From the NCBI RefSeq assembly GCF_022370755.2, contig NZ_CP092364.2, positions 992,001-1,056,000 on the forward strand: DNA of 64,000 bases, written 5' to 3'. Under the pieces are notes generated by a model that had not been told where the DNA came from, did no database searches, and saw only the letters and a list, made by a program, of their open reading frames with translations. Positions 48,615-64,000 of the stretch are shown here, piece by piece. Position 1 is the first letter of the stretch. Each line of letters opens with the position of its first letter. Origin of the DNA: Mycolicibacterium goodii. GTDB taxonomy: Bacteria; Actinomycetota; Actinomycetes; Mycobacteriales; Mycobacteriaceae. Made by a program: the position numbers and the translations under genes.

Positions 48615-49202
48615 ATGGCTGTTTTGACGATCGGTGACCAGTTTCCGGAGTACGACCTGACCGCTGTGGTTGGCGGCGATCTGTCCAAGGTTGACGCCAA
48701 GCAGCCCGATGACTACTTCACGCGCGTCACCAGCAAGGACCACGAGGGCAAGTGGCGCATCATCTTCTTCTGGCCGAAGGACTTCACCTTCGTGTGCCCG
48801 ACGGAGATCGCGGCGTTCGGCAAGCTCAACGAGGACTTCGAGGACCGCGACGCCAAGGTGCTCGGCGTGTCGGTGGACAACGAGTTCGTCCACTTCCAGT
48901 GGCGTGCCCAGCACGAGGACCTCAAGACCCTGCCGTTCCCGATGGTCTCGGACCTCAAGCGTGAGCTGACGGCGGCGTGCGGCGTGCTCAACGCCGACGG
49001 TGTCGCCGACCGCGCGACCTTCATCGTCGACCCGAACAACGAGGTCCAGTTCGTGTCGGTGACCGCAGGCTCGGTCGGCCGCAACGTCGACGAGGTGCTG
49101 CGGGTGCTCGATGCGCTGCAGTCCGACGAGCTGTGCGCGTGCAACTGGAAGAAGGGCGATCCGACGATCAACGCCGGTGAGCTGCTTGCGGGGGCGGTGT
49201 AA
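48615..49202 (+). CDS. ahpC: Alkyl hydroperoxide reductase, peroxiredoxin subunit
   Basis: The 195-residue peroxiredoxin reduces peroxides and peroxynitrite. The peroxidatic Cys is in DFTFVCPTEIAAFG (about residue 61) and the resolving cysteines in ELCACNWKKGD (about 174-176), three-cysteine type as in mycobacteria. First gene of ahpC-ahpD, 3 bases apart. Confidence 0.97.
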   Translation: MAVLTIGDQFPEYDLTAVVGGDLSKVDAKQPDDYFTRVTSKDHEGKWRIIFFWPKDFTFVCPTEIAAFGKLNEDFEDRDAKVLGVSVDNEFVHFQWRAQHEDLKTLPFPMVSDLKRELTAACGVLNADGVADRATFIVDPNNEVQFVSVTAGSVGRNVDEVLRVLDALQSDELCACNWKKGDPTINAGELLAGAV

Positions 49203-49205
49203 TCC

Positions 49206-49739
49206 ATGAGCATCGACAACATCAAGTCGGCCCTGCCCGAGTACGCCAAGGATCTCAAGCTCAACCTCGGCAGCATCGCCAACACCACCGAGCTGGGCGA
49301 ACAGCAGTTGTGGGGCGCCCTGGTTGCCACCGCCGCGGCCACCAAGAACGCGCGGCTGCTGCGTGAGATCTCGGAGGACGCGCTTGACATCCTCAGCGAA
49401 GAGGCCTACAACGCCGCACTGGGCGCGGCCGCGATCATGGGGATGAACAACGTCTTCTACCGCACCAAGGGTCAGCTCGACGGCAAGTACGACGACCTGC
49501 GTGCCGGCCTGCGGATGAACATCATCGGCAATCCCGGTGTCGCCAAGGAGGACTTCGAGCTGTGGTCGCTGGCGGTCTCGGCGATCAACGGCTGTGGTCA
49601 CTGCCTGGCCGCGCATGAGAAGACGCTGCGCGACGCCGATGTCTCGCGCACGACCATCTTCGAGGCGATCCGGCTCGCGTCGATCGTCTCCGGAGTTGCC
49701 CAGGCACTGCTCACCGCGGACACTCTCGCCGCCGTCTGA
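49206..49739 (+). CDS. ahpD: Alkyl hydroperoxidase AhpD
   Basis: The 177-residue helical protein reduces AhpC using its CxxC pair, [15 protein letters not shown] (about residues 129-138), where the His and Glu around the pair are part of the proton relay. It links AhpC to the dihydrolipoamide system. Followed by a strong terminator. Confidence 0.96.
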
Positions 49740-49808: not shown

Positions 49809-49828
49809 CCGCTTATGCGCATAAGCGG
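49809..49828 (+). promoter_or_regulatory. LacI-type operator 1 over the transporter promoter
   Basis: CCGCTTATGCGCATAAGCGG is a perfect 20-base palindrome with the central CG typical of LacI-family operators. A -10-like TAAACT follows at 49835-49840, so the palindrome covers the -35 position and binding would repress. A near copy lies at 52234-52249. Confidence 0.75.
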
Positions 49829-49872
49829 CCACGGTAAACTCGCTTCTCGTATCACGAGAGGCGGGTTTCCGT

Positions 49873-51195
49873 ATGTCAGCCACCGACCGCGAGACCGCGG
49901 TGCGCAAAGCCGTCATGGGCGCATCGATCGGCAACGCCGTGGAGTGGTTCGATTTCGCCATCTACGGCTTCCTGGCGACCTACATCGCCGCCAACTTCTT
50001 TCCGGCGGGCAACGAGACCGCCGCACTGCTCAACACTTTCGCGATCTTCGCCGCGGCGTTCTTCATGCGCCCGCTCGGAGGTTTCGTCTTCGGCCCGCTG
50101 GGGGACCGTCTAGGACGTCAACGGGTGCTCGCGATCGTGATCCTGTTGATGTCGGCCGCGACCCTCGGCATCGGCCTGTTGCCCACTTACGCCGCGATCG
50201 GGGTCGTGGCGCCGCTGCTGTTGTTGCTGTTGCGGTGTCTGCAGGGATTCTCCGCGGGAGGCGAATATGGCGGCGGTGCAGTCTATCTCGCAGAGTACGC
50301 CCCACAACGCCGCCGCGGGCTGATCGTCACCTACATAGCCTGGTCGGGCGTGCTCGGCTTCCTGCTCGGGTCGGTGACCGTGACGGTGCTGGCGGCGCTG
50401 CTGCCCCCCGAGGCCATGGACAGCTATGGATGGCGGATCCCGTTCCTGATCGCCGCGCCGCTCGGCCTCGTCGGCCTCTACATCCGACTGCGCCTCGACG
50501 ACACCCCGGAGTTCGAGAAGCTCGACGCCGCCGACCGTGTCGCCAAATCCCCACTGCGCGAGGCACTCCGGACCGCTCGCAAGCCGATCCTGCAGGTCAT
50601 CGGCATGTTCATCGTCTTCAACGTGGGTTATTACGTCGTCTTCACCTTCATCCCCACCTACTTCATCAAGACCCTGGAATTCAGCAGGACCCAGTCGTTC
50701 ATCTCGATCACGTTGGCCAGCCTCACAGCCCTTGTGCTGATCCTGCCACTGGCGGCGCTCTCGGACCGGGTGGGACGCAAACCGCTGCTGCTGGCCGGTT
50801 CGATCGGCTTCGCTGTGCTCGCCTACCCGCTGTTCGTGCTCATGACCTTGGGGTCGGTGACCGCCGCGATCATCGGCCACTGCCTGCTCGCGGCGATCGA
50901 ATCGACTTACGTCGCAACCGCCGTCAGCGCCGGTGTCGAACTGTTCACCACCCGGGTGCGCTACAGCGGGTTCTCGATCGGCTACAACATCTCGGTCGCG
51001 GTGTTCGGCGGGACGACGCCGTACGTCGTCACCTGGCTCACGGCCGCCACCGGCAACCACCACGCGCCCGCGCTGTATCTCGTCGTCGCGGCCGTCGTCT
51101 CGGTCGCTGCGGTGCTCACCCTCACCGAGAACGCGGGTCTCCCGCTGCCGACCGGACACACAGACGGAAAGCGGCGTGCCACGATGACATCGTGA
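49873..51195 (+). CDS. MHS-family MFS transporter (metabolite:proton symporter)
   Basis: The 440-residue protein has about twelve transmembrane helices. [20 protein letters not shown] at the N-terminus and [17 protein letters not shown] after helix 2 are signatures of the metabolite:H+ symporter branch (ProP, KgtP, ShiA relatives), which mostly import small carboxylates, betaines or aromatic acids. AGAGGCGGG precedes the ATG. Its last bases overlap the GTG of the LacI regulator (GTGA), so the two form an operon. Substrate unknown. Confidence 0.88.
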
Positions 51196-52193
51196 ACCAA
51201 GGCAGACCGAGCCGACCGAGCGTACGTCCGACGAAAGCTGACGTCGCCAGGCTCGCCAACGTCTCCACCGCCACGGTCAGCTACGTCCTCAACAACGTTC
51301 AGGGTCAGCGGATCTCGGAACAGACACAGGAGACCGTGCGCCGGGCCGCGGCGGAGCTGGGCTACCGGCCGAACCTCGCCGCGCGAAACCTCGCGTCCGG
51401 CGGGAGCGGTGTGGTGCTCTACATCGTCGGGCGGCTTTCACTGGGCAATCTCCCCATCGAGGTCGGCAGCCGGCTCACCACTGCGCTCGCTCGGCGCGGA
51501 ATCGTGCTGTCGCTGCAATTCGAGACCGACGACGACAGCAACGTGGTCGACGCGATCGCCGACCTCAACCCGATGGCGATCACCAGTACGTTCCCACTCA
51601 CCGGCAATGCGCTGGCCGCCGCGACGGCGGCCGGCATACCCCAGATCCACCTCGGCAGTTCACAACTGCACGCGATCGGCGCCCTTGATCGCAGCATCGG
51701 GGAGATGCGCGTAGCGCACCTGACCTCGCGCGGACACACCCGGCTCGCATTCGCCTACACCACCGATGAGGAACTGCGCCCGCTCGGCGACTACTGGCTC
51801 ACGGGCCTGCGCGCGGCCGCGCAGAAGCGTGGGTTACCCGACATCGCGGTCGCGAGCGTCGCCTCCGATGGCTCGAACGCGGCCGAGGTGGTGACCGGGT
51901 GGGCCGCTGCCGGCGTGACGGCGATCTGCGCGCAGAGCGACGAGACCGCGTTCGTGGTACTGCACGGCCTGCGCAGCGCAGGCCTGCGCTGTCCGGCGGA
52001 CATGGCGGTGATGGGGGTGAACGCGATCGAGCTCGGCGCCGTGAGCGCACCACCGCTGACCTCGGTGTCCTTCGACGCCGAGGCGATCGTGGACGTGGCG
52101 GTCGCCGCGATGATGTCCGAGCTCGGATATCCGACCGACCAGGAACCGAGCGGCATCGATGTCGCGACGCTGATCGTGCGCGATTCCACCTGA
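51192..52193 (+). CDS. LacI-family transcriptional regulator
   Basis: The 333-residue protein starts at GTG overlapping the transporter stop. The N-terminal HTH is [20 protein letters not shown] (about residues 16-35) with the hinge [20 protein letters not shown], then a periplasmic-binding-type effector domain ending [21 protein letters not shown]. It most likely binds the palindromes at 49809 and 52234, flanking its own operon and the P450 operon, making it the local repressor. Confidence 0.93.
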
Positions 52194-52233
52194 TCATGGC
52201 TTTTCAATGTTCCCAGGTGACAAGATCGAACGC

Positions 52234-52249
52234 GCTTACGCGCATAAGC
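52234..52249 (+). promoter_or_regulatory. LacI-type operator 2 over the P450 promoter
   Basis: GCTTACGCGCATAAGC differs from the core of operator 1 by one base. The distance to the following TAAACT (52259-52264) is almost the same as at operator 1, and both leaders end in AGAGG(C/T)GGGTTTCC before the ATG. The two promoters are clearly related. Confidence 0.75.
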
Positions 52250-52294
52250 ATCACTGTGTAAACTCCATTCTCGAACGCAGAGAGGTGGGTTTCC

Positions 52295-53497
52295 ATGACA
52301 GCCGGCGCTACCAAGAACGTGTACTTCGACCCCTACGACGTGGCGATCAACTCCGACCCGTACCCGACGTTCGCCCGGCTGCGCGAAGAAGCGCCGTTGT
52401 ACTACAACGAGCAGTTCGACTTCTACGCCCTGAGCCGCTACCACGACGTCAACAAGGCGCTCATCGACCACGAGACCTTCAGTTCCGCGCGTGGCGCGAT
52501 CGTGGAGCTGATCAAGGCGAATATCGAGATCCCCTCGGGCGCGCTGATCTTCGAGGATCCGCCGATCCACACCGCGCACCGCAAGCTGTTGTCGCGGATG
52601 TTCACACCGCGCAAGATCAACGCGCTCGAACCCAAGATCCGGGAATTCTGCGCGCAGAGCCTCGATGCTGTCGTCGACTCCGGAAGATTCGACATCATCA
52701 AGGATTTCGGCGCCATCATGCCGATGCGGGTGATCAGCGCGCTGCTCGGCATCCCCGAGGAGGACCAAGAGAAGATCCGTGACCACGCCAACGAGCAGAT
52801 GCGCACCGAGGCTGGCAAGCCCATGAAAGCCGCCGAGGAGGGCCTGGTCGACGGGTCGATCTTCGAGGCCTACATCGAGTGGCGCAGGGACAACCCGTCC
52901 GACGACATCATGACAGAGTTGCTCAACGTCGAGTTCACCGATGAGCACGGCGTCACCCGCAGGCTCACCCGCGAAGAACTGTTGATCTACATCAACGTGG
53001 TCGCGGGCGCGGGCAACGAGACCACCACCCGGTTGATCGGCTGGGCGACGAAGCTCTTGGCCGAACATCCCGACCAGCGTCGCGAGCTCATCGAGAACCC
53101 GGCCCTGATTCCGCAGGCGATCGAGGAGATCCTGCGATTCGAACCGCCAGCTCCGCACGTGGCCCGTTACGTCACCCGTGACGTCGAGTACTACGGCCAG
53201 ACCGTGCCAGAGGGCAGCGTGATAATGATGCTCATCGGCGCGGCGGTCCGCGACAGCCGTCAATTCCCGCCCGACGGAGAGGTTTTCGACATCCACCGGG
53301 AGCCGCGTCAGCACCTGGCGTTCAGTGTCGGCACCCACTTCTGCCTCGGCTCGGCACTCGCCCGTCTCGAGGGACGCATCGCACTCGAAGAGATCCTCAA
53401 GCGGTTCAGCGAGTGGGACGTCGACCTCGCCAATGCGGAACTCTCACCCACCTCGACTGTGCGGGGCTGGGATTCGTTGCCGGTGATCATCCGGTGA
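52295..53497 (+). CDS. Cytochrome P450
   Basis: The 400-residue soluble bacterial P450 has the I-helix AGAGNETTTR (oxygen activation, Thr present), ExxR as EEILRFEPP, and the heme loop FSVGTHFCLGSALARLEGR with the ligating Cys. It would hydroxylate a small molecule using ferredoxin-delivered electrons; no ferredoxin is directly adjacent, the nearest being at 61634-61945. I do not assign a CYP family. It is controlled by operator 2 and coupled to the next gene by a GTGA overlap. Confidence 0.93.
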   Translation: MTAGATKNVYFDPYDVAINSDPYPTFARLREEAPLYYNEQFDFYALSRYHDVNKALIDHETFSSARGAIVELIKANIEIPSGALIFEDPPIHTAHRKLLSRMFTPRKINALEPKIREFCAQSLDAVVDSGRFDIIKDFGAIMPMRVISALLGIPEEDQEKIRDHANEQMRTEAGKPMKAAEEGLVDGSIFEAYIEWRRDNPSDDIMTELLNVEFTDEHGVTRRLTREELLIYINVVAGAGNETTTRLIGWATKLLAEHPDQRRELIENPALIPQAIEEILRFEPPAPHVARYVTRDVEYYGQTVPEGSVIMMLIGAAVRDSRQFPPDGEVFDIHREPRQHLAFSVGTHFCLGSALARLEGRIALEEILKRFSEWDVDLANAELSPTSTVRGWDSLPVIIR

Positions 53498-54570
53498 CCG
53501 CAGCGCTCACGGTCCCTCGGGACTGGACCGAGATCACCCCGCAGTGGCTGACGTCCGCGCTGTCGGTGCACCACCGAGACGCCGTCGTCGAGAACGTCAC
53601 CGTCGACATGCGCGACGACGGAACGAACCGTCGCGCGCGGCTTGCGGTCACGTACCGGCCCGGCCCGCAAGGGCCTGCCACGGTGTTCGTCAAGGGCGTT
53701 GACCCCGACCACAAGGCGATGATCAAGATGACCAGCGGTCTGCTGCACGAGCCGCGGTTGTTCAACTCGAACATCCGCTTGCCACTGGAGCATCCGACGG
53801 TGTACGCGGCCGCGATCGACGAGGCCGGCGAGGAGTTCGTGCTCGTCATGGAAGACCTCACGGCGCGTGGGGCGGATCCACGCGACGCCACCCGGCCCCT
53901 GACCGTCGACCAGGCGGCCATCGGTGTTCGCGCGCTGGCGCGCATGCACGGACAGTTCTGGGGCGAGCGGCTTGCACAGCCCGCGTTGGCGTGGCTGGAA
54001 CCGTTCGAGCCGTGGGACGGCATGCAGTGGGCTCCGCTGCCCGCGGCGCTCGAACGCCTCGGCGACGACGCACCTCCGTCCGTGCAGGCGCTGACGATCG
54101 ACCATCTCGTCGAAGGTATCTGGAAGCCCTACATCCGGACCCTCACCGCGTCCTCGGAGCCGCAGACGCTGCTGCACGGCGACGCGCACATCGGCAACAC
54201 GTACCTCACGTCCGACGGCGACGTCGGATTCCTCGACTGGCAGGTCGCACGCCGCGGGAACTTCGCGGTGGATCTCGGTTACTTCTTGCAGGGCGCGCTG
54301 AATACCCACGACCGCCGCGCCGCCGAGCGGGAACTTCTCGTGGAGTACCGCGGCTCACTCGGGCTACCCGCCGCGGAAACCCCGTCGATGGATGAGATCT
54401 GGTTGCGTTACCGGGCATCGGTGGCACACGGATTGACGACATGGCTCGCCACCGCGAGCGCGGGGGAGTTGTGGCAGCGCCCCGACATCGCGCTGGTCCT
54501 GGCGCAGCGCTACTCCGCGGCCTACGAGGACCTGCAGACCGCCGAGGCACTCGCCGATCTGGAGAGCTAG
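53494..54570 (+). CDS. APH/choline-kinase-fold phosphotransferase-like protein
   Basis: The 358-residue protein has the catalytic loop LLHGDAHIGNTYL (Brenner motif with Asp and Asn) followed by VGFLDWQVARRG (metal Asp), and VLVMEDL in the hinge region. Such proteins phosphorylate small hydroxyl compounds. GTG start inside the P450 stop codon means coupled translation, so its substrate may be the P450 product or a related alcohol. The Lys of the N-lobe is probably FVKGVD. Confidence 0.85.
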   Translation: MTAALTVPRDWTEITPQWLTSALSVHHRDAVVENVTVDMRDDGTNRRARLAVTYRPGPQGPATVFVKGVDPDHKAMIKMTSGLLHEPRLFNSNIRLPLEHPTVYAAAIDEAGEEFVLVMEDLTARGADPRDATRPLTVDQAAIGVRALARMHGQFWGERLAQPALAWLEPFEPWDGMQWAPLPAALERLGDDAPPSVQALTIDHLVEGIWKPYIRTLTASSEPQTLLHGDAHIGNTYLTSDGDVGFLDWQVARRGNFAVDLGYFLQGALNTHDRRAAERELLVEYRGSLGLPAAETPSMDEIWLRYRASVAHGLTTWLATASAGELWQRPDIALVLAQRYSAAYEDLQTAEALADLES

Positions 54571-54675
54571 CTTTCGCCCACCGCTGCGGTGACGCGGTCG
54601 AGTGCCGTTGCGGGCGGCTGCGCGCCGAACGCCTCGACGATCGGCATCCGCCACACCTGCGAGTTGGCCATGGCG

Positions 54676-54978
54676 CTAGTCGCTCGCGGGCAGCGGCTTG
54701 GCCTCCTTGAGGCTCAGCGGGGTGGTCCCGATCGACAGCGATCCCGCACCGGCCTTGGTGACGAGCACCTCGGCACCGTTGTCGTCGACGTAGCGCTTGC
54801 CCATCAGGGTACCGGCGGCGAAGGATGGGTCGAGCGCTGCGCCACTGTCCTTCTCGGCGTCGAGGGGGATCATCGGGACGCCGCCCGCGCGCAGGTCGTC
54901 GAGGCTGTCGGCGCTGCGGACGACGATAACCTGGGTGTCGCACACCTGGCTCTGCAGGCGCGTGCCGTTCTTGATCAC
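54676..54978 (-). CDS. Small protein of unknown function at the end of the fadD operon
   Basis: The 100-residue acidic protein (MIKNGTRLQSQVCDTQVIVV start, KEAKPLPASD end) has one Cys, no membrane segment and no motif I recognise. It follows the acyl-CoA synthetase gene by 24 bases on the same strand, with GAAGGAG before its ATG, so it is likely the third gene of the SDR-fadD operon. A binding or chaperone role for a pathway enzyme is only a guess. Confidence 0.7.
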   Translation of the reverse strand: MIKNGTRLQSQVCDTQVIVVRSADSLDDLRAGGVPMIPLDAEKDSGAALDPSFAAGTLMGKRYVDDNGAEVLVTKAGAGSLSIGTTPLSLKEAKPLPASD

Positions 54979-55002
54979 TGCGGACTCCTTCGATAGGGAG
55001 GG

Positions 55003-56493
55003 CTACGAGATGGGCTGGAGCTCGTCGACGAGTTGACGGCGCAGTACCTTGCCGGTGGCGTTGGTGGGCAGTTCCGCACGGAAGACCACGCGGTCCGGGG
55101 TGCGGGATCCGCGCAGATGTTTGCGCACGTGTTCGCGGAGCTCGTCGGCGTCGGGTTCGGCGCCGTCGGCGGGAACCACGACCGCGACGATGATCTGGCC
55201 CCACTGCGGATCCTCCGGACCGACCACCGCGACGTCGCGGACGTCGGGGTGCTCCACGAGAACGTCTTCGATCTCCGCGGGTGCGATGTTCTCGCCGCCG
55301 CGGATGATGGTGTCGTCCGATCGGCCGCCGATGAACAGGTAACCGTCCTCGTCAAGGGCGGCAACGTCTTTGGTGGGAAACCAGCCGTCCGCGTCGAGCA
55401 CCGAGCCGATCCCGGTGTAGCGGCCGGACACCTGATCGCCGCGGACGAACAGTTCACCGGTCTCGCCCGGTCCGAGCACCGTGCCGTCCTCGGCGCGGAT
55501 CTGCACCTCGACACCGGGTACCACCTGTCCCACCGATCCGAGGCGGCGGGTCACCGCGGGGTCGTCGGACGCCAGTGCGGCGCGGTGGTCGTCGGGCCCG
55601 AGAACCGCGATGGTGGAACTGGTTTCGGTGAGACCGTAGGCGTTGACGAAGCCGACGCCTGGCATCAACTCCAGGGCCTTACGCACCAGCGGCAGGGCCA
55701 CCTTGGACCCACCGTAGGCGAGGTTGCGCAGTGTCGGCAGATCGGCGTCCGTCGTCTCCAGTTCGGTGACGATGCGGTCGAGCATCGTCGGCACCACGGT
55801 CGCCGAGGTCACTCCCTCGGTGCGTACCAGCTCGACCCAGCGGTGTGCGTCGAAGTTACGTAGGTACACCATCTTGCGCCCGGCGTACAGATTCGACATC
55901 GCCGCGCTCACACCGGCGATGTGGTACGGCGGCACGCAGATCAGCGCGGCGTCCTCGGGTGCGGCGGAATCGAATTCGACAGTTCCGGTGATGTAGGTCG
56001 TGAGGTTGTTGTGGGTGAGTTCGACGGCTTTCGGGCGCGATGTCGTCCCCGAGGTGAACAGCACCACCGCGACGCCGTCGGGGTCGGCGAACTCCGACAC
56101 GGGATCGGCGACACGGGCTTTCGCGAGGAACTTTTCGGAGGTGACGACCTGCTTGCCCGCCCCGGCGATCGCGTCGGCGTACTCGCTGTCGGCGACCACG
56201 AGCGGTTCGGGCAGTCGGTCGACCAGTTCACGCAGACCCTCGGCGCTCAGGCGGTAGTTCAGGGGCGTGAACGGTATCGCCGCGCGTGCCGAGGCGAACA
56301 GCAGCACCGGCAGCAGTGCGCCGCCGGTGCCCACATAGGCGACATGTGCCGCACCCGAACCGGCGAGCACGCCTGCGGCGCCGTCGGCCAGTGTGCTCAA
56401 CTCACCCGTGGTGAGCCGAATGTCGTCCGATACCAGCGCGATACGGTCGGGATCACCCGACGATGCCATCTCGAGCAGCAACGATATGCTCAT
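55003..56493 (-). CDS. Acyl-CoA synthetase (AMP-forming, FadD type)
   Basis: The 496-residue ANL ligase forms an acyl-CoA from a carboxylic acid, ATP and CoA. AMP-binding motif: VVLFTSGTTSRPKAVELTH; core motif NAYGLTETSSTIAVLG; hinge region GGRSDDTIIRGGENIAPAE; C-terminal catalytic Lys in PTNATGKVLRRQL. Its ATG overlaps the SDR stop (ATGA), so the two are coupled. The substrate is unknown; the short length suggests a small acid rather than a long fatty acid. Confidence 0.92.
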   Translation of the reverse strand: MSISLLLEMASSGDPDRIALVSDDIRLTTGELSTLADGAAGVLAGSGAAHVAYVGTGGALLPVLLFASARAAIPFTPLNYRLSAEGLRELVDRLPEPLVVADSEYADAIAGAGKQVVTSEKFLAKARVADPVSEFADPDGVAVVLFTSGTTSRPKAVELTHNNLTTYITGTVEFDSAAPEDAALICVPPYHIAGVSAAMSNLYAGRKMVYLRNFDAHRWVELVRTEGVTSATVVPTMLDRIVTELETTDADLPTLRNLAYGGSKVALPLVRKALELMPGVGFVNAYGLTETSSTIAVLGPDDHRAALASDDPAVTRRLGSVGQVVPGVEVQIRAEDGTVLGPGETGELFVRGDQVSGRYTGIGSVLDADGWFPTKDVAALDEDGYLFIGGRSDDTIIRGGENIAPAEIEDVLVEHPDVRDVAVVGPEDPQWGQIIVAVVVPADGAEPDADELREHVRKHLRGSRTPDRVVFRAELPTNATGKVLRRQLVDELQPIS

Positions 56494-57350
56494 AAGCCCT
56501 GCCCCGGTGCGTCGATGAAGATGTCGATGATCGGACTGTCCCCGCCACCATAACCAGAAAGGTCGCTCACGCCTGCGGTGGTGAGCACCTCGGAGTCGAG
56601 GAACGTCTTACCGTTGACCTCACCCGCCGGTCGCGACAGAATCTCGACGGCCGCGTCGGCCATGATCTCGGGTCCGCGGGAGGACTTCAACAGCTCCTGG
56701 CCGCCCGCACCGTTGGCCACGGCCGCGGTCGCGATGTACGTCTCGGGCCACAGACAGCTGAAACCTATCTTCGCGTCGGCATATTCGGCGGCCCAGCCCT
56801 GCGAAAGCAGCGTCATCCCGTACTTCGACAGCGTGTAGGAGGGGTGCGCGCCGAGCCAGTACGGGTTGAGGTTCAGCGGCGGGGCCAGGGTGAGCACATG
56901 CGCGCGACGGCCGGCCTCTGCGGACTTGGCCAGGTGCGGCAGCGCAGTCTTGGTCAGCAGGAACGTACCGCGCACGTTGATGTCCATCATCAGGTCGAAC
57001 TTCTTGACCGCCAGCGATTCGGTCGGTTCGGTCGCGATCGCGCTGGCGTTGTTGACCACGATGTCGACACCGCCGAAGCGTTCCACCGCGGTGTCGATGG
57101 CGCGCGCCACGTCCTCCTCCTTGCGGACGTCGCCGACCACCGCGACTCCCTTGCCGCCCGCGGCCTCGACATCGGCGACCGCGGTGTGGACGGTGCCTGG
57201 CAGCTTCGGGTGCGGTTCTGCGGTCTTGGCCAGCAGCACCACGTTCGCGCCGCGCTTCGCGGCCCCCAACGCGATTGCCAGACCGATCCCGCGGCTGCCG
57301 CCGGATACGACCATCGTGAGGTCGGCGAAAGACTCCTGCTGGGTGGACAT
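56490..57350 (-). CDS. Short-chain dehydrogenase/reductase (HSDL2-like)
   Basis: The 286-residue NAD(P)-dependent oxidoreductase has the nucleotide motif VSGGSRGIGLAIALGAA, NNASAI and the catalytic SYTLSKYGM (Tyr-xxx-Lys). The segment LLAKTAEPHPKLPGTVHTA is characteristic of the HSDL2/citronellol-dehydrogenase-like branch. First gene of the leftward operon; the candidate promoter and operator lie at 57421-57455. Confidence 0.9.
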   Translation of the reverse strand: MSTQQESFADLTMVVSGGSRGIGLAIALGAAKRGANVVLLAKTAEPHPKLPGTVHTAVADVEAAGGKGVAVVGDVRKEEDVARAIDTAVERFGGVDIVVNNASAIATEPTESLAVKKFDLMMDINVRGTFLLTKTALPHLAKSAEAGRRAHVLTLAPPLNLNPYWLGAHPSYTLSKYGMTLLSQGWAAEYADAKIGFSCLWPETYIATAAVANGAGGQELLKSSRGPEIMADAAVEILSRPAGEVNGKTFLDSEVLTTAGVSDLSGYGGGDSPIIDIFIDAPGQGL

Positions 57351-57420
57351 GGGCCTCCTCGTCGGACGCGGCGGGGTCTACCGACGCCTCAGGTGAGAAC
57401 GTTGCCGCGTACCCAGAAGG

Positions 57421-57455
57421 GTATTGGCATTCTCATTTTTAGCAAGTGTCGTACT
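57421..57455 (-). promoter_or_regulatory. Repeat element 1: candidate promoter/operator of the SDR-fadD operon
   Basis: On the minus strand TTGCTA and TACCCT are 16 bases apart, with AATGAGAATGCCAATA between them. Most of the 35-base segment is repeated at 57567-57600, and AATGAGAAT recurs at 61978-61986. A repressor at this place would block the -35/-10 interval. Confidence 0.55.
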
Positions 57456-57566
57456 CCTATGGCTCGGCAACCGGCCGAACCGCATCTCCCAGAGCGTTCG
57501 GGGTGAGGCAGGGGCCGCGGGTCGAGGCGCTTCCGTCCAGTACACGGCACACATTTCCCCGGCGCG

Positions 57567-57600
57567 GTATTGGAATTCTCATTTTTTGTAAGTACGTTAT
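57567..57600 (+). promoter_or_regulatory. Repeat element 2: candidate promoter/operator of the mutase operon
   Basis: Direct repeat of the element at 57421, with about 25 of 29 bases identical over the first part. On the plus strand TTGGAA (57570-57575) and TACGTT (57593-57598) are 17 bases apart and end 5 bases before GTG 57604, with no Shine-Dalgarno, so the mutase mRNA is probably leaderless. Confidence 0.55.
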
Positions 57601-57603
57601 CGG

Positions 57604-59195
<1,592 letters not shown>

Positions 59196-59196
<1 letters not shown>

Positions 59197-59594
59197 TGGC
59201 TACTCGGGTGCTGGTCGCCAAGCCGGGGTTGGACGGCCACGACCGCGGTGCCAAGATCGTCGCGCGTACGTTGCGGGACGCCGGTTTCGAGGTCATCTAC
59301 ACCGGCATCCGGCAGCGCATCGAGGACATCGTGTCGATCGCGTTGCAGGAAGATGTTGGGCTGGTGGGACTTTCGATTCTGTCCGGGGCCCATGTGGCGT
59401 TGACCGCGCGCACTGTCGAGGCGCTGCGGGATGCCGATGCCGGTGACATCGCCGTCGTCGTCGGCGGCACCATCCCGCAGGGCGACGTACAGAAACTGCT
59501 CGACGTCGGAGCTGCCGCGGTGTTCCCGACGGGCACGCCGCTGGACACGCTGGTGACCGAGGTGCGGGCACTCACGGAGAAGGTGGGCAGATGA
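59196..59594 (+). CDS. B12-dependent acyl-CoA mutase, small (cobalamin-binding) subunit
   Basis: The 132-residue protein is the Rossmann-like B12 domain: GLDGHDRGAK holds the cobalt-ligating His (DxHxxG), followed by LSILSG and VVVGGTIP of the base-off binding signature. The GTG start shares a base with the large-subunit stop (TAGTG), so the two subunits are made together in equal amounts. The end overlaps the LLM gene (ATGA). Confidence 0.94.
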
Positions 59595-60547
59595 GACTGG
59601 GCGTGATGATCGGGGCCGAGCGCGGCGACATGGCGCGCAAGGTCGACAAGCTCGCGGCAGACATCCAGTGGGCGGAGGCCGCTGGTCTGGACAGCGCGTG
59701 GATGCCGCAGGTGCCCGACGACTTCGACTCCCTCAGCATGGTCGCACTGATGGCCGCGCACACTTCGACGATCGAACTCGGTACGGCGGTCGTGCCGCTG
59801 CAGGCTCAGCATCCGATTGCCCTTGCCCGCCAGGCACTCTCGGTCCACGCGATCTCGGAAGGCCGGCTGGCGCTCGGGGTGGGCCCGTCACACCACTGGA
59901 TCATCCGCGACATGCTGGGCCTGCCGTACGACAAGCCCGCCGCCTACACGCGCGACTATCTCGAGGTGCTAGGCGTCGCGTTGTCCGGGCCGGGTCCCGT
60001 CGACGTCGAGAACGACACGTTCACGGTGCACAATCCCACCGTGCTGGCCGCCGAGACGCCGCTGCCGGTGCTGATCGCCGCACTCGGTCCGGTGATGCTG
60101 CAGATCGCCGGCGAACTGGCCGACGGCACGGTGCTGTGGATGGCCGATGAACGCGCCATCGGTGACCACATCGCACCGCGCATCACCAAGGCCGCGGAGA
60201 ACGCCGGCCGGCCCGCACCGCGGATCGTGGCCGGAATTCCGGTGTGCTTGTGCGCGAATTCGGAGATCGAGGCCGCCAAGGAGCGCGCGAACCGGATCCT
60301 GGCGGAGGCCGAGACGTCGCCCAACTATCAGCGGCTGCTCGAACGCGGCGACGCGCGCAATGTCGGTGATCTGTGCGCGGCCGGCGACGAGGATGCCATC
60401 TTGGCCCGCTTCAAGAAGTTCGCCGATGCCGGCGTGACGGATCTGTCGGTGCGCCTGCTGCCGATCGGCGACAACCGTGACGAGTTGATCGCGTCGAAGT
60501 ACCGGACACGTGAGGTGATCGCCGAGCTCGCGAAGGCGGTGCGATGA
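59591..60547 (+). CDS. Luciferase-like F420-dependent oxidoreductase
   Basis: The 318-residue LLM-fold protein starts MRLGVMIGAERGDMARKVDK, with ELGTAVVPLQAQHPIALARQ and GRLALGVGPSHHWI. I recall a protein family defined around an M. smegmatis gene with this profile (F420-dependent, TIGR03564). It would oxidise or reduce an alcohol/aldehyde or enoyl group with coenzyme F420. Coupled to the mutase small subunit by a 4-base overlap, so it probably acts on the same intermediate series. Confidence 0.85.
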   Translation: MRLGVMIGAERGDMARKVDKLAADIQWAEAAGLDSAWMPQVPDDFDSLSMVALMAAHTSTIELGTAVVPLQAQHPIALARQALSVHAISEGRLALGVGPSHHWIIRDMLGLPYDKPAAYTRDYLEVLGVALSGPGPVDVENDTFTVHNPTVLAAETPLPVLIAALGPVMLQIAGELADGTVLWMADERAIGDHIAPRITKAAENAGRPAPRIVAGIPVCLCANSEIEAAKERANRILAEAETSPNYQRLLERGDARNVGDLCAAGDEDAILARFKKFADAGVTDLSVRLLPIGDNRDELIASKYRTREVIAELAKAVR

Positions 60548-60589
60548 GCGCTTGCGCGAAGAGCCGAGGATCGCGATGAGCGCTTGCGC
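60541..60589 (+). repeat. 17-base direct repeat creating an 11-codon minicistron
   Basis: GCGATGAGCGCTTGCGC occurs at 60541-60557 and again at 60573-60589. The first copy supplies an ATG (60544) overlapping the LLM stop; it reads 11 codons and stops at 60577-60579, overlapping the true CoA-transferase ATG at 60576. It looks like a duplication of the start region of the next gene. Confidence 0.7.
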
Positions 60590-61649
60590 CCCGTTGGCCG
60601 GTATCCGCGTCATCGAGGTCGGCGTGATGCTTGCGGGCCCGTACGCCACGATGATGCTCGCGGATCTCGGCGCGGAGGTGATCAAGGTCGAACCGCCGGG
60701 CGGGGAGATTTCACGGCAGGTGGGGGACAGCTATTTCGCGAGCCTCAACCGGGGCAAGCGCAGCCTGTGCCTGGACCTGGCGTCACCCGAGGGCAAGGCG
60801 AGACTCGCTGAACTGGTGGCGGATTCGCACGCGCTGCTGGTGAACATGAAGCCTTCGGTGATCCGCCGCCTCGGCCTGACCTATGAGGCGTTGAGAGAGT
60901 TCAATCCGAAGATCGTGTGTGTCGCCATGACGGGGTTCGGGCTCGACGGCGGCGACGATCCGGCGTTCGACTACGTGATCCAGGCTGCGACCGGGGTGGC
61001 GGCGATGACCGGTGATCCACATGGTCCGCCGACGCTGCCGGGCTACTCGTCGGCGGACAACTCCACCGGGCTCACTGCGGCGCTGGGTCTGCTGGCGATG
61101 ATCGTGTCCGGCCGCGGGGGCCAGGTGGACGTGTCGCTGCGCGATGTCATGCTGTCGCAGCTGAACTACCGTGCGTCGGCGTACCTCAACGACGGTACCG
61201 AACCGCGCCGCTACCCGAACGGTGCGCACTCGTATTACGTTCCTGCCCAATTGTTTCCGACGGCCGACGGACATCTCGCGCTGTTCATCACGCACGACGG
61301 GTTCTGGAGGTCGTTCGCCGGCGAGGCGGGTATCGACGGGTTCGCGACCATGGCGGAACGCGCGGCCCGGCGTGACGAGGTACTGCAGGTGGTCACCGCG
61401 ACGCTTGCGACCGATTCGGCCGCAAGCTGGGAGGCGCGGCTCAAACCGCTGGGTATCCCGGTCGCGGCGGTGCGCACGCTGCCGGAGGCGCTTTCCGCCA
61501 CACCAGAGGCGATCGTCACCGCCGGTGACTTCCGCCTGGTGGGGAGTTCGATCCGGGTATCCGGGTACGAGCCCGACTACCGGCCGCCACCGGCGTTCGA
61601 CGAGTTCGCCCAGCGGTCTCCGGCGGCGCAGCCTCAGTCTTCGTCGTAG
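60576..61649 (+). CDS. CaiB/BaiF (family III) CoA-transferase
   Basis: The 357-residue protein begins with the family pattern PLAGIRVIEVGVMLAGPYATMMLADLGAEVIKVEPPGG and contains NRGKRSLCLDLASPEGKARL. The likely catalytic Asp is in FDYVIQAATGV (about residue 135). It transfers CoA between acids or acts as a racemase; racemases of this family (AMACR type) are a real alternative. Start ATG with GAGGA 6 bases upstream. The 3' end overlaps the ferredoxin gene by 16 bases, tail to tail. Confidence 0.92.
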   Translation: MSACAPLAGIRVIEVGVMLAGPYATMMLADLGAEVIKVEPPGGEISRQVGDSYFASLNRGKRSLCLDLASPEGKARLAELVADSHALLVNMKPSVIRRLGLTYEALREFNPKIVCVAMTGFGLDGGDDPAFDYVIQAATGVAAMTGDPHGPPTLPGYSSADNSTGLTAALGLLAMIVSGRGGQVDVSLRDVMLSQLNYRASAYLNDGTEPRRYPNGAHSYYVPAQLFPTADGHLALFITHDGFWRSFAGEAGIDGFATMAERAARRDEVLQVVTATLATDSAASWEARLKPLGIPVAAVRTLPEALSATPEAIVTAGDFRLVGSSIRVSGYEPDYRPPPAFDEFAQRSPAAQPQSSS

Positions 61650-61945
61650 GAGACCGTCACGGTGTCGCAGTCCGGGACCGCCTGGCACGTCAGCACGTAA
61701 CCTTCGGCGACCTCGTCGTCGTCGAGAGCGTCGTTGACGCGCATCGTGGCCGTTCCTTCGAGGAGTTTGGCCATGCACGTGCCGCAGTTTCCCGCCTCGC
61801 ACGAGAACGGAGGTGTCATGCCGGCTCGTCGTGCGCTCTCCAGCAGCGTCTCATTCGGCCTGCGTGGGACCGAGACCTGCGCACGCTCGAACAGGATGGT
61901 CACCTTCCCTCCGGGCTCTCCGTTGGGTAGTGGTTCTGCCGTCAT
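61634..61945 (-). CDS. Plant-type 2Fe-2S ferredoxin
   Basis: The 103-residue protein has the cluster ligands CEAGNCGTC followed by TCQA near the C-terminus, the C-x4-C-x2-C...C pattern. ATG at 61945 with GGGGAG 5 bases upstream is preferred to an in-frame start at 61990. It is monocistronic, divergent from the ligase at 62091, and may carry electrons to the P450 or another oxygenase; its partner is not proven by context. Confidence 0.9.
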   Translation of the reverse strand: MTAEPLPNGEPGGKVTILFERAQVSVPRRPNETLLESARRAGMTPPFSCEAGNCGTCMAKLLEGTATMRVNDALDDDEVAEGYVLTCQAVPDCDTVTVSYDED

Positions 61946-61979
61946 CAAGCTCCCCTGCGCACTAGCATTCTGATACAAT

Positions 61980-61994
61980 GAGAATAGCATTCTC
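61980..61994 (+). promoter_or_regulatory. Repeat element 3: GAGAAT inverted repeat between ferredoxin and ligase
   Basis: GAGAATAGCATTCTC is a 6-3-6 inverted repeat preceded by ACAAT, giving the AATGAGAAT core also present on the minus strand of elements at 57421 and 57567. TAGTAT at 62004-62009 could be the -10 of the rightward gene. Likely TetR-type operator, by inference. Confidence 0.55.
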
Positions 61995-62090
61995 CGGAAA
62001 TGATAGTATCTTCTCGCTCACCTCGCGTACGCGGTGAGCGCGCGTCACGAGAGGCGGCACTGGTGGATTCGGCACGGACAGGTGGGTCTC

Positions 62091-63479
62091 ATGGCTGACG
62101 CTGCCGTGCTCGCGTTCGGTGACCGCGAATACACTCTTGCCGAACTCGACTCGCTCACCGGCGGCATGGCCACGGCGTTGGCTCGCCGCGGCGTCGGCCC
62201 GGGCGAGCGGGTCGCGATGATGTCGTCGAACCGTCCCGAGTTCGTGGTGGCGCTGCGCGCGATCTGGCATCTCGGAGCCGCGGCGGTCCTGATCAGCCCG
62301 GCCTGGAAATCCGCCGAGATCGCCCACGCCCTGAAGCTCACGCGGCCGACCCACGCGGTAGGGGATCATCCGCTGCTCGCCGAACACCTGCCGATGCTGC
62401 GCCTCGACGAGCCGATCACGCCCGGTGAACATCGCGGCCACACCGACATGGTCACCCCGGATGCCGATGCGTTGTTCGTGTTCAGCTCCGGCACCACCGG
62501 CATGCCGAAAGCCGTGTGCCACAGCCATGCCGGGTTCGCGGCCGCCATCGAACACTGGCGCGACGCGCTCGGGCTGACCGCGGCAGACCGTATGCAGATC
62601 ATGACCCCGCCGTCGCACATCCTCGGCCTGCTCAACATCGCGATGGTGCTCGACACCGGCGCCTGGATGCGGCTGCATCCCCGGTTCGACGTCGACACCA
62701 TGTTGCGCCATATCGAATCCGACCGCATCACGATCGAGATGGCCGTGGCGCCGATCGCTCTGGCACTGGCCGCGCATCCGGAGCTCGAGCGGTTCGACAT
62801 GTCGTCCCTGCGGTACGTGATGTGGTGCGCGACGCCGGTCACGCGCAGCGTCGCCGAGGACATCACCGCGCGCACCGGCATCCGGTGGCTCACCGCGTAC
62901 GGCACCACCGAACTACCGGTCATCGCGTGCAATCCACCGGAGGACACCAGGATCGAGACCGTCGGCAAACCGGTGTGCGGCGTGCGGGTGCGCATCGCGG
63001 ATACCGGTGAGATCGAGGTGTGTTCCCCCTCGGTCATGCGCGGCTATCTGCCCGAGAGCGCCACCGCGGGCGCGTTCAGTGACGGTTCCGGCCACGGGTG
63101 GTACCGCACCGGCGACATCGGATTCCTCGACGATGACGGATATCTGCACATCACCGACCGCGCCAAGGAGATGATCAAGGTGCGCGGTTTCCAGGTCGCG
63201 CCGGCCGAGGTCGAGGCCGTGTTGCACGCGCATCCCGCCGTGGCCGACTGCGCGGTTTTCGGTGCACCGGACGCGGCCGACGGGGAAGCCGTCGTCGCGG
63301 CCGTGGCCACATGTGCCGAGGTGTCCGCCGACGAGCTCATCGACCTGGTCTGCTCGCGGCTCGCGTCGTACAAGCGGCCGCGCCGCATCGAATTCGTAAC
63401 CGAGATACCCCGCTTGCCTTCCGGGAAGGTATTGCGACGAGTGCTGAAGGAGCGGCATGGACGTCCGTCTGACGGCTGA
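62091..63479 (+). CDS. AMP-dependent acid-CoA ligase
   Basis: The 462-residue ANL enzyme has VFSSGTTGMPKAVCHSH, the core motif TAYGTTELPVIACN, YRTGDIGFLDDDGYLHITDR and the C-terminal Lys in LPSGKVLRRVLKERH. Start at ATG 62091 (MADAAVLAFGDREYT) with AGGTGGG upstream; an upstream in-frame ATG at 62034 lacks homology support. Short N-terminal domain. The second ligase of the cluster after 55003-56493, so two different acids or two steps may need activation. Confidence 0.9.
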   Translation: MADAAVLAFGDREYTLAELDSLTGGMATALARRGVGPGERVAMMSSNRPEFVVALRAIWHLGAAAVLISPAWKSAEIAHALKLTRPTHAVGDHPLLAEHLPMLRLDEPITPGEHRGHTDMVTPDADALFVFSSGTTGMPKAVCHSHAGFAAAIEHWRDALGLTAADRMQIMTPPSHILGLLNIAMVLDTGAWMRLHPRFDVDTMLRHIESDRITIEMAVAPIALALAAHPELERFDMSSLRYVMWCATPVTRSVAEDITARTGIRWLTAYGTTELPVIACNPPEDTRIETVGKPVCGVRVRIADTGEIEVCSPSVMRGYLPESATAGAFSDGSGHGWYRTGDIGFLDDDGYLHITDRAKEMIKVRGFQVAPAEVEAVLHAHPAVADCAVFGAPDAADGEAVVAAVATCAEVSADELIDLVCSRLASYKRPRRIEFVTEIPRLPSGKVLRRVLKERHGRPSDG

Positions 63480-64000
63480 ACAGCAGCAGCTGCGAGAGGC
63501 TGCTGCGAAACTGGCCGACGACCTCGGACCTGGCTCGGTCCAGGAACTCTCCGACGAGAACAGGGTCTCGCGGTTGGAGAGCACCGTGGCCGCCACCGAG
63601 TGGCGCACACTGCGATCCGACGGCGCGTCCGGGGTGGAGGTGGCGATCGTCGCCGAGGAGTTAGCTCGTGGGCTCGTCGACGTGCCGTACCTCGGGCCGA
63701 TCCTCGCCGATGACCTGGGACAGCGCCTCGGCCGTGCGGTCGCGCTGCCCGAGACGGCGGCCGCAGGCGTCGACCTCACCAACATCGCCGTGGGTGTCGC
63801 CGAGTCACCCGCCGAACTCGACGAGCTCTCCTGCGACGACGCGGCGCGCTGGCATGCTTTGGCGCTCGCCGCCACCGGCGCAGATCTGGTCGGTGCGGCG
63901 CGCGGCGCTCATGCTCTTGCCGTCGACTACGCGAAGGTGCGCGAGCAGTACGGCTCGACGATCGGCTCCTATCAGGCTGTCGCGCACATGCTGGCCGAAG
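63457..64000 (+). CDS. Acyl-CoA dehydrogenase (FadE type), N-terminal part
   Basis: The gene runs off the right edge; 181 residues are visible, starting MDVRLTAEQQQLREAAAKLA with GAAGGAG before the ATG, inside the last 23 bases of the ligase gene. The helical start and the later ATGADLVGAARGAHALAVDY followed by REQYGSTIGSYQAVAHMLAE are typical of actinobacterial acyl-CoA dehydrogenases. The middle beta domain is short, as in the FadE subunits that pair as heterodimers (one partner lacks the catalytic base), so a second fadE just beyond the edge is likely. Confidence 0.88.
   Translation, partial: MDVRLTAEQQQLREAAAKLADDLGPGSVQELSDENRVSRLESTVAATEWRTLRSDGASGVEVAIVAEELARGLVDVPYLGPILADDLGQRLGRAVALPETAAAGVDLTNIAVGVAESPAELDELSCDDAARWHALALAATGADLVGAARGAHALAVDYAKVREQYGSTIGSYQAVAHMLAE

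Follow-up and report, generated by a model that had tools for sequence, protein, structure and literature searches.

Gene content of the locus

The window analysed here is a stretch of 64,000 nucleotides from Mycolicibacterium goodii (positions 992001-1056000 of a 6.74-Mb single-contig genome), and its last 14 kb carry the genes for a two-subunit B12-dependent mutase, CoA ligases, oxidoreductases and a cytochrome P450 that an earlier note, made from the DNA letters, had proposed to form a single catabolic system. Genes were assigned to families from open reading frames (ORFs) and Pfam and NCBIfam models, with bit scores read against the curated cut-offs (Table 1). All of the families named in the note were recovered at about the same places, together with the start/stop overlaps of the MHS/LacI, P450/APH, ligase/SDR and mutase large/small/LLM genes, and the catabolic look of the region, the split form of the mutase and its conservation were borne out. 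As the note had supposed, no paper describing the cluster as a pathway was listed in our literature searches, which turned up individual locus tags. What did not hold is the reading of the 14 kb as one system ending at position 64000: a left unit (49.8-54.6 kb; transporter, LacI regulator, P450 and kinase) and a right unit (from 54.7 kb) have separate operators, and more genes follow beyond the window, where the right unit continues into an island of about 105 kb.

Table 1. Features of the two units, in window coordinates, with their conservation among 80 related loci
Feature	Position	Strand	Evidence	Loci of 80
LacI-type operator GCTTATGCGCATAAGC, before MHS	49811..49826		perfect palindrome	
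MHS-type MFS transporter	49873..51195	+	PF00083, PF07690; TIGR00883 402 bits, below cut-off 443	30 (any copy)
LacI-family regulator	51192..52193	+	PF00356, PF13377; start overlaps MHS stop	18
Second LacI-type operator GCTTACGCGCATAAGC, before P450	52234..52249		palindrome search	
Cytochrome P450	52295..53497	+	best solved structure CYP130, 230 bits	19
EcKL/APH-fold kinase	53494..54570	+	PF02958, PF01636; start overlaps P450 stop	14
orf100, conserved 100-aa protein	54676..54978	-		69
AMP-dependent CoA ligase 1	55003..56493	-	PF00501	67
SDR oxidoreductase	56490..57350	-	NF006133 393 bits, cut-off 250	73
Promoter element TATTGGCATTCTCATTTTT, 19 bases, before mutase	57422..57440		ATTCTC half-site, not full palindrome	
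B12 mutase large subunit (mutL)	57604..59196	+	PF01642 650 bits	80
B12-binding small subunit (mutS)	~59193..59594	+	PF02310; TIGR00640 144 bits, cut-off 57	79
LLM-class oxidoreductase	59591..60547	+	TIGR03564 366 bits, cut-off 234	79
CaiB-type class III CoA-transferase, start uncertain	~60573..61649	+	PF02515 291 bits	78
2Fe-2S ferredoxin	61634..61945	-	PF00111	77
Palindrome GAGAATAGCATTCTC, between ferredoxin and ligase 2	61980..61994		genome scan	
AMP-dependent CoA ligase 2, start uncertain	~62091..63479	+	PF00501	77
Acyl-CoA dehydrogenase subunit 1	63457..64000, cut by window end	+	family models	73

The relatives of the window are mycobacteria, and conservation was scored in 80 loci, the best of 410 confirmed relatives; because the most similar were kept, these are near kin. 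A gene was counted as present at 50% identity, and several of the loci end at contig ends or at the 10-kb limit. The grouping of genes in the right cluster goes beyond chance: of the 80 loci, 80 have mutL, 79 mutS, 79 LLM and 78 CaiB. Within 4.7 kb past the window end the cluster goes on with a second acyl-CoA dehydrogenase, an enoyl-CoA hydratase (ECH), two SDRs and a MeaB-type GTPase (TIGR00750, 252 bits against a cut-off of 241); in the 80 loci the second dehydrogenase was counted 73 times, ECH 72, SDR3 64, the GTPase 56 and SDR2 52. Use of F420 by the LLM-class oxidoreductase is predicted from one family match, TIGR03564. The models that match the CaiB protein best are those for succinate/glutarate, oxalate and mesaconate, and it scores far below the cut-off of each. 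The orf100 gene, overlooked in the earlier note, gave no Pfam or NCBIfam family match. At a strict cut-off the mutase was found in 227 of 297 sampled mycobacterial genomes, and a phage collection held two matching records, both below 60% identity.

A palindrome-marked island and its probable regulator

A 15-base palindrome, GAGAATNNNATTCTC, lies between the ferredoxin and ligase 2 genes and is kept there in all 74 regions compared (73 loci and the window) at no more than one mismatch, 69 of them perfect. Seven perfect sites occur genome-wide, against 0.05 expected at the local G+C content and none for the reversed control, and six of these fall within 1053980-1149744, each just upstream of a gene start by our gene calls. 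The seventh site, the only one outside the island (C1:1303023-1303037, L111), precedes genes that by eye resemble two 2-oxoacid:ferredoxin oxidoreductase subunits, and its 15 bases are also present once each in two other genomes (G013 and G021).

The island, spanning 1.0467 to 1.1525 Mb, comprises about 105 genes, a count that is approximate because our own gene caller missed or truncated LigB and ferredoxin genes; about 90 kb of it, mostly catabolic genes, lie past the right cluster. Family models place MhpA, 3-carboxyethylcatechol dioxygenase and one KstD-like protein above cut-off and a second KstD-like protein below, and also support amidohydrolases, a kinase, an acyl-CoA dehydrogenase, a ligase and a thiolase/OB-fold protein, while an Mce operon, a Rieske oxygenase and further P450s, among them g62 (64% identity to the left P450), were recognized by eye. 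The right unit is one end of this catabolic island, cut by the window, and both the island and its palindrome are well supported.

A TetR-family gene in the island (1085853-1086515, outside the window; PF00440) has GAGAATNNNATTCTC about 120 bp upstream, and 17 of the 22 TetR loci retrieved carry a perfect copy at a similar upstream distance, about 110-125 bp. Of 41 genomes, 20 have the TetR gene at E 1e-30 and these are exactly the palindrome-bearing ones, the other 21 having neither; by genus, the gene is present in 20 of 25 genomes inside and none of 16 outside. In a draw of 296 genomes from the phylum, 25 have any perfect palindrome (18 have one, seven have at least three), and all seven with at least three carry a close mutL; the control pattern gave one or two matches in eight other genomes. 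Taken together, these sequence patterns make it likely that the TetR protein binds GAGAATNNNATTCTC.

The case for counting the mutase as part of the island is strongest in a genome of another family (G343), which has a 60% TetR, five palindromes and many island genes within 86 kb. There, genes for an amidohydrolase, a ligase, mutL, mutS, LLM and CaiB are co-directional and begin right after a palindrome; in the window's genome about 100 kb separate that amidohydrolase and ligase from the mutase. In one relative (L074:5793-7662), orf100 adjoins relatives of the island genes g108 (79%) and g107 (90%), both of which are about 100 kb from orf100 in the window's genome.

Regulatory DNA of the left unit

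The sharing of regulatory DNA that the earlier note had seen is real within the left unit and does not extend across both units. A whole-genome scan (6.74 Mb) placed a 16-bp palindrome, GCTTAYGCGCATAAGC, upstream of both the transporter gene (49811) and the P450 gene (52234), and no third genomic site comes within one mismatch; two further places appear once two mismatches are allowed, and the reversed-pattern control gave one forward and four reverse matches. Upstream of the P450 in the loci of 19 P450-bearing relatives, the best GCTTAYGCGCATAAGC match has one to four mismatches, a range for which no background was computed. Allowing two mismatches still yields no GAGAATNNNATTCTC site in the left unit, and the two kinds of operator, LacI-type and GAGAATNNNATTCTC, suggest that the two units answer different signals. 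The mutase is preceded by yet another element, TATTGGCATTCTCATTTTT, with a second copy at 57568-57586 (one mismatch, 146 bp from the first) and no other genomic site at up to three mismatches; the related 8-mers GGTATTGG and AAGTACGT are present in 72 of 74 such promoter regions.

Active site of the mutase

Among solved structures, mutL is closest to 2-hydroxyisobutyryl-CoA mutase (501 bits), followed by methylmalonyl-CoA mutases (at most 477); no ethylmalonyl-CoA mutase reference turned up among the sequence or structure matches. It falls within the acyl-CoA mutase N-terminal family TIGR00641 (652 bits, cut-off 304) and scores 571 bits against the methylmalonyl-CoA mutase equivalog NF006944, below the cut-off of 876 for a model that describes a fused large subunit and B12 domain. 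In the alignment, the signature residues of 2-hydroxyisobutyryl-CoA mutase (Ile and Gln) are absent and Tyr and Arg stand in their place. All 81 mutases compared retain the equivalents of Tyr89, Gln197, Arg207 and His244 and have Ala in place of Tyr243, and in mutL the His-Arg of the PTHRG motif is replaced by Gln-Cys. Tyr89, Arg207 and His244, with the roles presumed for them, are what we take to be a methylmalonyl-CoA-type active site; Tyr and Arg at these positions mark mutases for free-carboxylate substrates, and Ala for Tyr243 suggests room for a larger group. Reasoning from this pattern, we infer that the mutase most likely interconverts a substituted succinyl-CoA and a substituted malonyl-CoA.

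A related cassette on plasmids

From 420 matching plasmid records the top-scoring distinct genera were examined, and plasmids of four proteobacterial genera, Paraburkholderia, Sulfitobacter, Marinobacter and Diaphorobacter, carry the genes in the order ECH, mutL, mutS, CaiB, GTPase. Identities to the window proteins are 55-57% for mutL, 52-57% for mutS, 50-56% for CaiB and 43-45% for the GTPase, and the cassette mutases have the same active-site letters as the window mutase. TRAP or tricarboxylate-type transporter genes are present in all four stretches at varying distance. Two further records were not counted as cassettes: H18 lacks a gene table, and the stretch in H20 (Streptomyces) has no annotated CaiB. 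The cassette crotonase is closest to the island gene g110 (36-46%), about 96 kb from mutL, and not to the mutase-adjacent crotonase; among the matches listed for it are only enoyl-CoA hydratase/crotonase models, all below cut-off.

The E. coli Sbm operon holds a mutase, a G-protein chaperone, a crotonase-fold enzyme with a methylmalonyl-CoA-type decarboxylase role and a CoA-transferase together, and the four plasmid cassettes resemble it by gene type in having mutase, GTPase, crotonase and CoA-transferase adjacent; in the window's genome the GTPase and the cassette-matching crotonase are apart from the mutase. Unlike in the Sbm operon, the CaiB protein is a class III transferase, and here the mutase is split and the promoter region different.

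Proposed function

We suggest, with moderate confidence, that the right cluster (54.7-64 kb and the next 4.7 kb) is the mutase branch of a TetR-repressed catabolic regulon of about 105 kb. The TetR protein would repress the regulon by binding GAGAATNNNATTCTC and be released by a pathway intermediate. A branched dicarboxylic acid would be activated as its CoA thioester by the CoA ligases and the CaiB transferase. The two-subunit mutase, with the MeaB-type GTPase of the cluster servicing it, would then convert a substituted succinyl-CoA and a malonyl-CoA with a substituent into one another by shifting the CoA-thioester group, and the pair of acyl-CoA dehydrogenases, the crotonase-fold enzymes and the SDRs would degrade the mutase product. 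A hydrophobic, alicyclic molecule is the probable parent compound. Hydroxylation of some compound of this pathway is the most likely task of the left P450, with the MHS-LacI-P450-kinase unit as a separately regulated satellite. Gene content, the palindromes and their positions, co-occurrence and the residue pattern are the observations beneath this reading; TetR binding, the reactions, the ligand and the substrate are what we infer from them.

Several observations weigh against this proposal. Before the mutase operon itself the best GAGAATNNNATTCTC match has two or three mismatches in 74 of 74 regions, with no full palindrome, and of 53 loci 15 have a perfect site at SDR3/MeaB and 38 one with at least three mismatches. 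Five of the 22 TetR loci lack an upstream palindrome, namely three of the least similar copies and the second copies in G016 and G022, and six of 23 TetR matches have one stop codon within the aligned range. One genome (G397) has a 53% mutL yet no palindrome, and another (G023) has TetR and palindromes, with mutL not found at the cut-off used. Neither CaiB nor the crotonases match any model above cut-off. The mutase of G397 was set aside, as it has mutS adjacent and, of the genes queried, otherwise only a weak ligase match (24%) in 20 kb. In G023 the genes from LLM to ECH are kept, and mutL, mutS and CaiB were not found in the 20 kb examined. The second TetR copies (L132 in G016, L133 in G022) show 78-80% identity.

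A broader version strikes us as possible, though it is offered tentatively. CaiB, an enlarged-pocket split alkylsuccinyl/alkylmalonyl-CoA mutase, the GTPase and a crotonase may form a portable B12 module that degrades branched dicarboxylates, and in environmental mycobacteria this module may be the terminal branch of an undescribed TetR regulon of about 105 kb whose target would be an alicyclic natural product of wide occurrence, terpenoid- or steroid-like and degraded by a route other than that of cholesterol. If the mutase reaction is as proposed, a catabolic alkylsuccinyl/alkylmalonyl-CoA mutase is common to aerobic mycobacteria and plasmid-bearing proteobacteria. As the mutase occurs in 227 of 297 genomes, environmental mycobacteria seem to have a large metabolic capacity that lacks an assigned substrate. 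The palindrome, the probable regulator and the M. smegmatis counterpart MSMEG_4881 make the function directly testable, and the inducer of one TetR protein should reveal what the island does.

Alternative explanations

The left unit could instead be a passenger, its nearness to the mutase reflecting inherited gene order and no shared pathway. Its own LacI operator fits such an origin, as do the genomes in which the P450 is distant from the mutase. A P450 match of at least 81% was found in 40 genomes, all 40 with mutL at E 1e-220; in the 38 with both positions, judged by eye, the two genes are at most 10 kb apart in 28 and 15 kb apart in one, and in nine the P450 is far from mutL (six) or on another contig (three); as the genomes are related, these counts are not independent. 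We nevertheless consider a passenger unlikely, since in six of the 22 TetR loci the P450 next to TetR resembles the left P450 (67-80%; one is truncated at a contig end) more than g62, with a palindrome between TetR and P450 in two of the six. Furthermore, in a genome of another genus (G369), a left-type P450 (74% identity; 62% to g62) stands about 7 kb before mutL, immediately after another island P450. On account of the closeness to mutL, the TetR-adjoining P450s and the order in G369, the left P450 probably serves the same pathway as the island, though in the window's genome it is under LacI. The P450 genes that lie some 45 kb from the mutase were at first taken for g62, an assignment then rejected; of the seven P450s beside TetR, six are closer to the left P450 and one to g62. 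The MHS transporter may also serve the same pathway as the right unit; a further copy (66-70%, opposite direction) is near the right cluster in 20 of the 80 loci.

That the island is an accessory sterol or steroid pathway, with the mutase branch handling a steroid fragment, is distinctly unlikely, although KstD-like enzymes and an Mce operon (by eye) in the island speak for it. Relevant expression data exist for M. smegmatis, whose counterparts were assigned by order, length and description, not by sequence comparison; in the available published descriptions MSMEG_4881 is a methylmalonyl-CoA mutase, MSMEG_4883 an AMP ligase, and MSMEG_4870 and MSMEG_4864 are KstD-like. The accessible part of one published RNA-seq study has MSMEG_4864-4873 induced on cholesterol relative to glycerol, in data without biological replicates and at low values (17.15 against 5.96 for MSMEG_4864). 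In the available entries of another published table MSMEG_4864 and MSMEG_4870 are without a KstR operator and have cholesterol fold changes of -1.46 and -1.35, so that the reports, as far as their available parts go, conflict over cholesterol induction. Strain VKM Ac-1817D on phytosterol over-expressed only kstD_1 of its five kstD genes, according to the available text of PMC6593523. The Mce operon induced in that strain was considered as the island's and rejected, being numbered there beside hsd4A, fadD17 and ltp3/4 genes (PMC6593523); we take it for the Mce operon of the KstR cluster.

The island does resemble the KstR and KstR2 cholesterol regulons in being palindrome-marked, in its tens of genes and KstD-like enzymes and, by eye, in its Mce importer, P450s and Rieske oxygenase. 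It differs from them in its palindrome, in ring cleavage of the MhpA and 3-carboxyethylcatechol dioxygenase type, in having a mutase and, in the available published data, in weak or no cholesterol induction of the M. smegmatis counterparts. The motif X regulon of strain VKM Ac-1817D, of the Rv0767c type, is likewise a mycobacterial TetR palindrome regulon with P450 genes, and its neighbours differ: its TetR, G155_05115, goes with steroid isomerase and P450 genes in the available text (PMC6593523). Motif X could not be equated with GAGAATNNNATTCTC, since the available text of PMC6593523 gives no motif sequence and that of PMC4482099 only logos. The accessible parts of PMC4694148, PMC10481361, PMC11303327 and PMC10049677 contain nothing on the substrate.

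It is quite improbable that the mutase acts on a monocarboxylic acyl-CoA in the manner of isobutyryl-CoA or 2-hydroxyisobutyryl-CoA mutase. It shares the split two-subunit form with HcmAB (4r3u), the 2-hydroxyisobutyryl-CoA mutase that is its nearest solved relative, but its substrate residues in all 81 sequences are the Tyr and Arg of methylmalonyl-CoA mutase and not Ile and Gln, and the best models for the CaiB protein, all below cut-off, concern dicarboxylates. The MatB/MatQ (matlystatin) and ActD (actinonin) mutases belong, in the available text of PMC5719088, to biosynthetic clusters with a crotonyl-CoA carboxylase-reductase; unlike there, the ligases, CaiB and dehydrogenases here suggest catabolism, in a comparison made without sequences.

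Very improbable, finally, is the view that the 14 kb form one self-contained pathway for one compound, from uptake via P450 hydroxylation to the mutase: the P450 and mutL are no more than 10 kb apart in 28 of 38 genomes, an MHS of some kind (at least 50% identity) is present in 30 of 80 loci, and the two halves, whose joint occurrence in relatives the earlier note had proposed to check, are found together in the 19 loci with the P450, but the operators are separate, the right unit runs into the island, 61 of 80 neighbourhoods have no left-type P450 within the DNA covered (at most 10 kb, some cut by contig ends), and the mutase operon of G343 joins island genes with no left-type P450 found in the 100 kb searched.

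Neighbouring features

No solved relative of the EcKL/APH-fold kinase of the left unit was found by sequence. A second APH-fold kinase gene, in the island, overlaps an acyl-CoA dehydrogenase gene (C1:1104401-1106730, L107); kinase/acyl-CoA dehydrogenase pairs such as ACAD10/11 and LvaA/LvaC process 4-hydroxyacyl-CoAs. Immediately before the left unit is an AhpC/AhpD-like pair, named by eye (window positions 48615-49739), of which AhpD was found in seven and AhpC in five of the 80 relatives' loci, within the DNA covered. Between the kinase gene and orf100 there is a candidate ORF of 34 amino acids on the minus strand (54567-54671).

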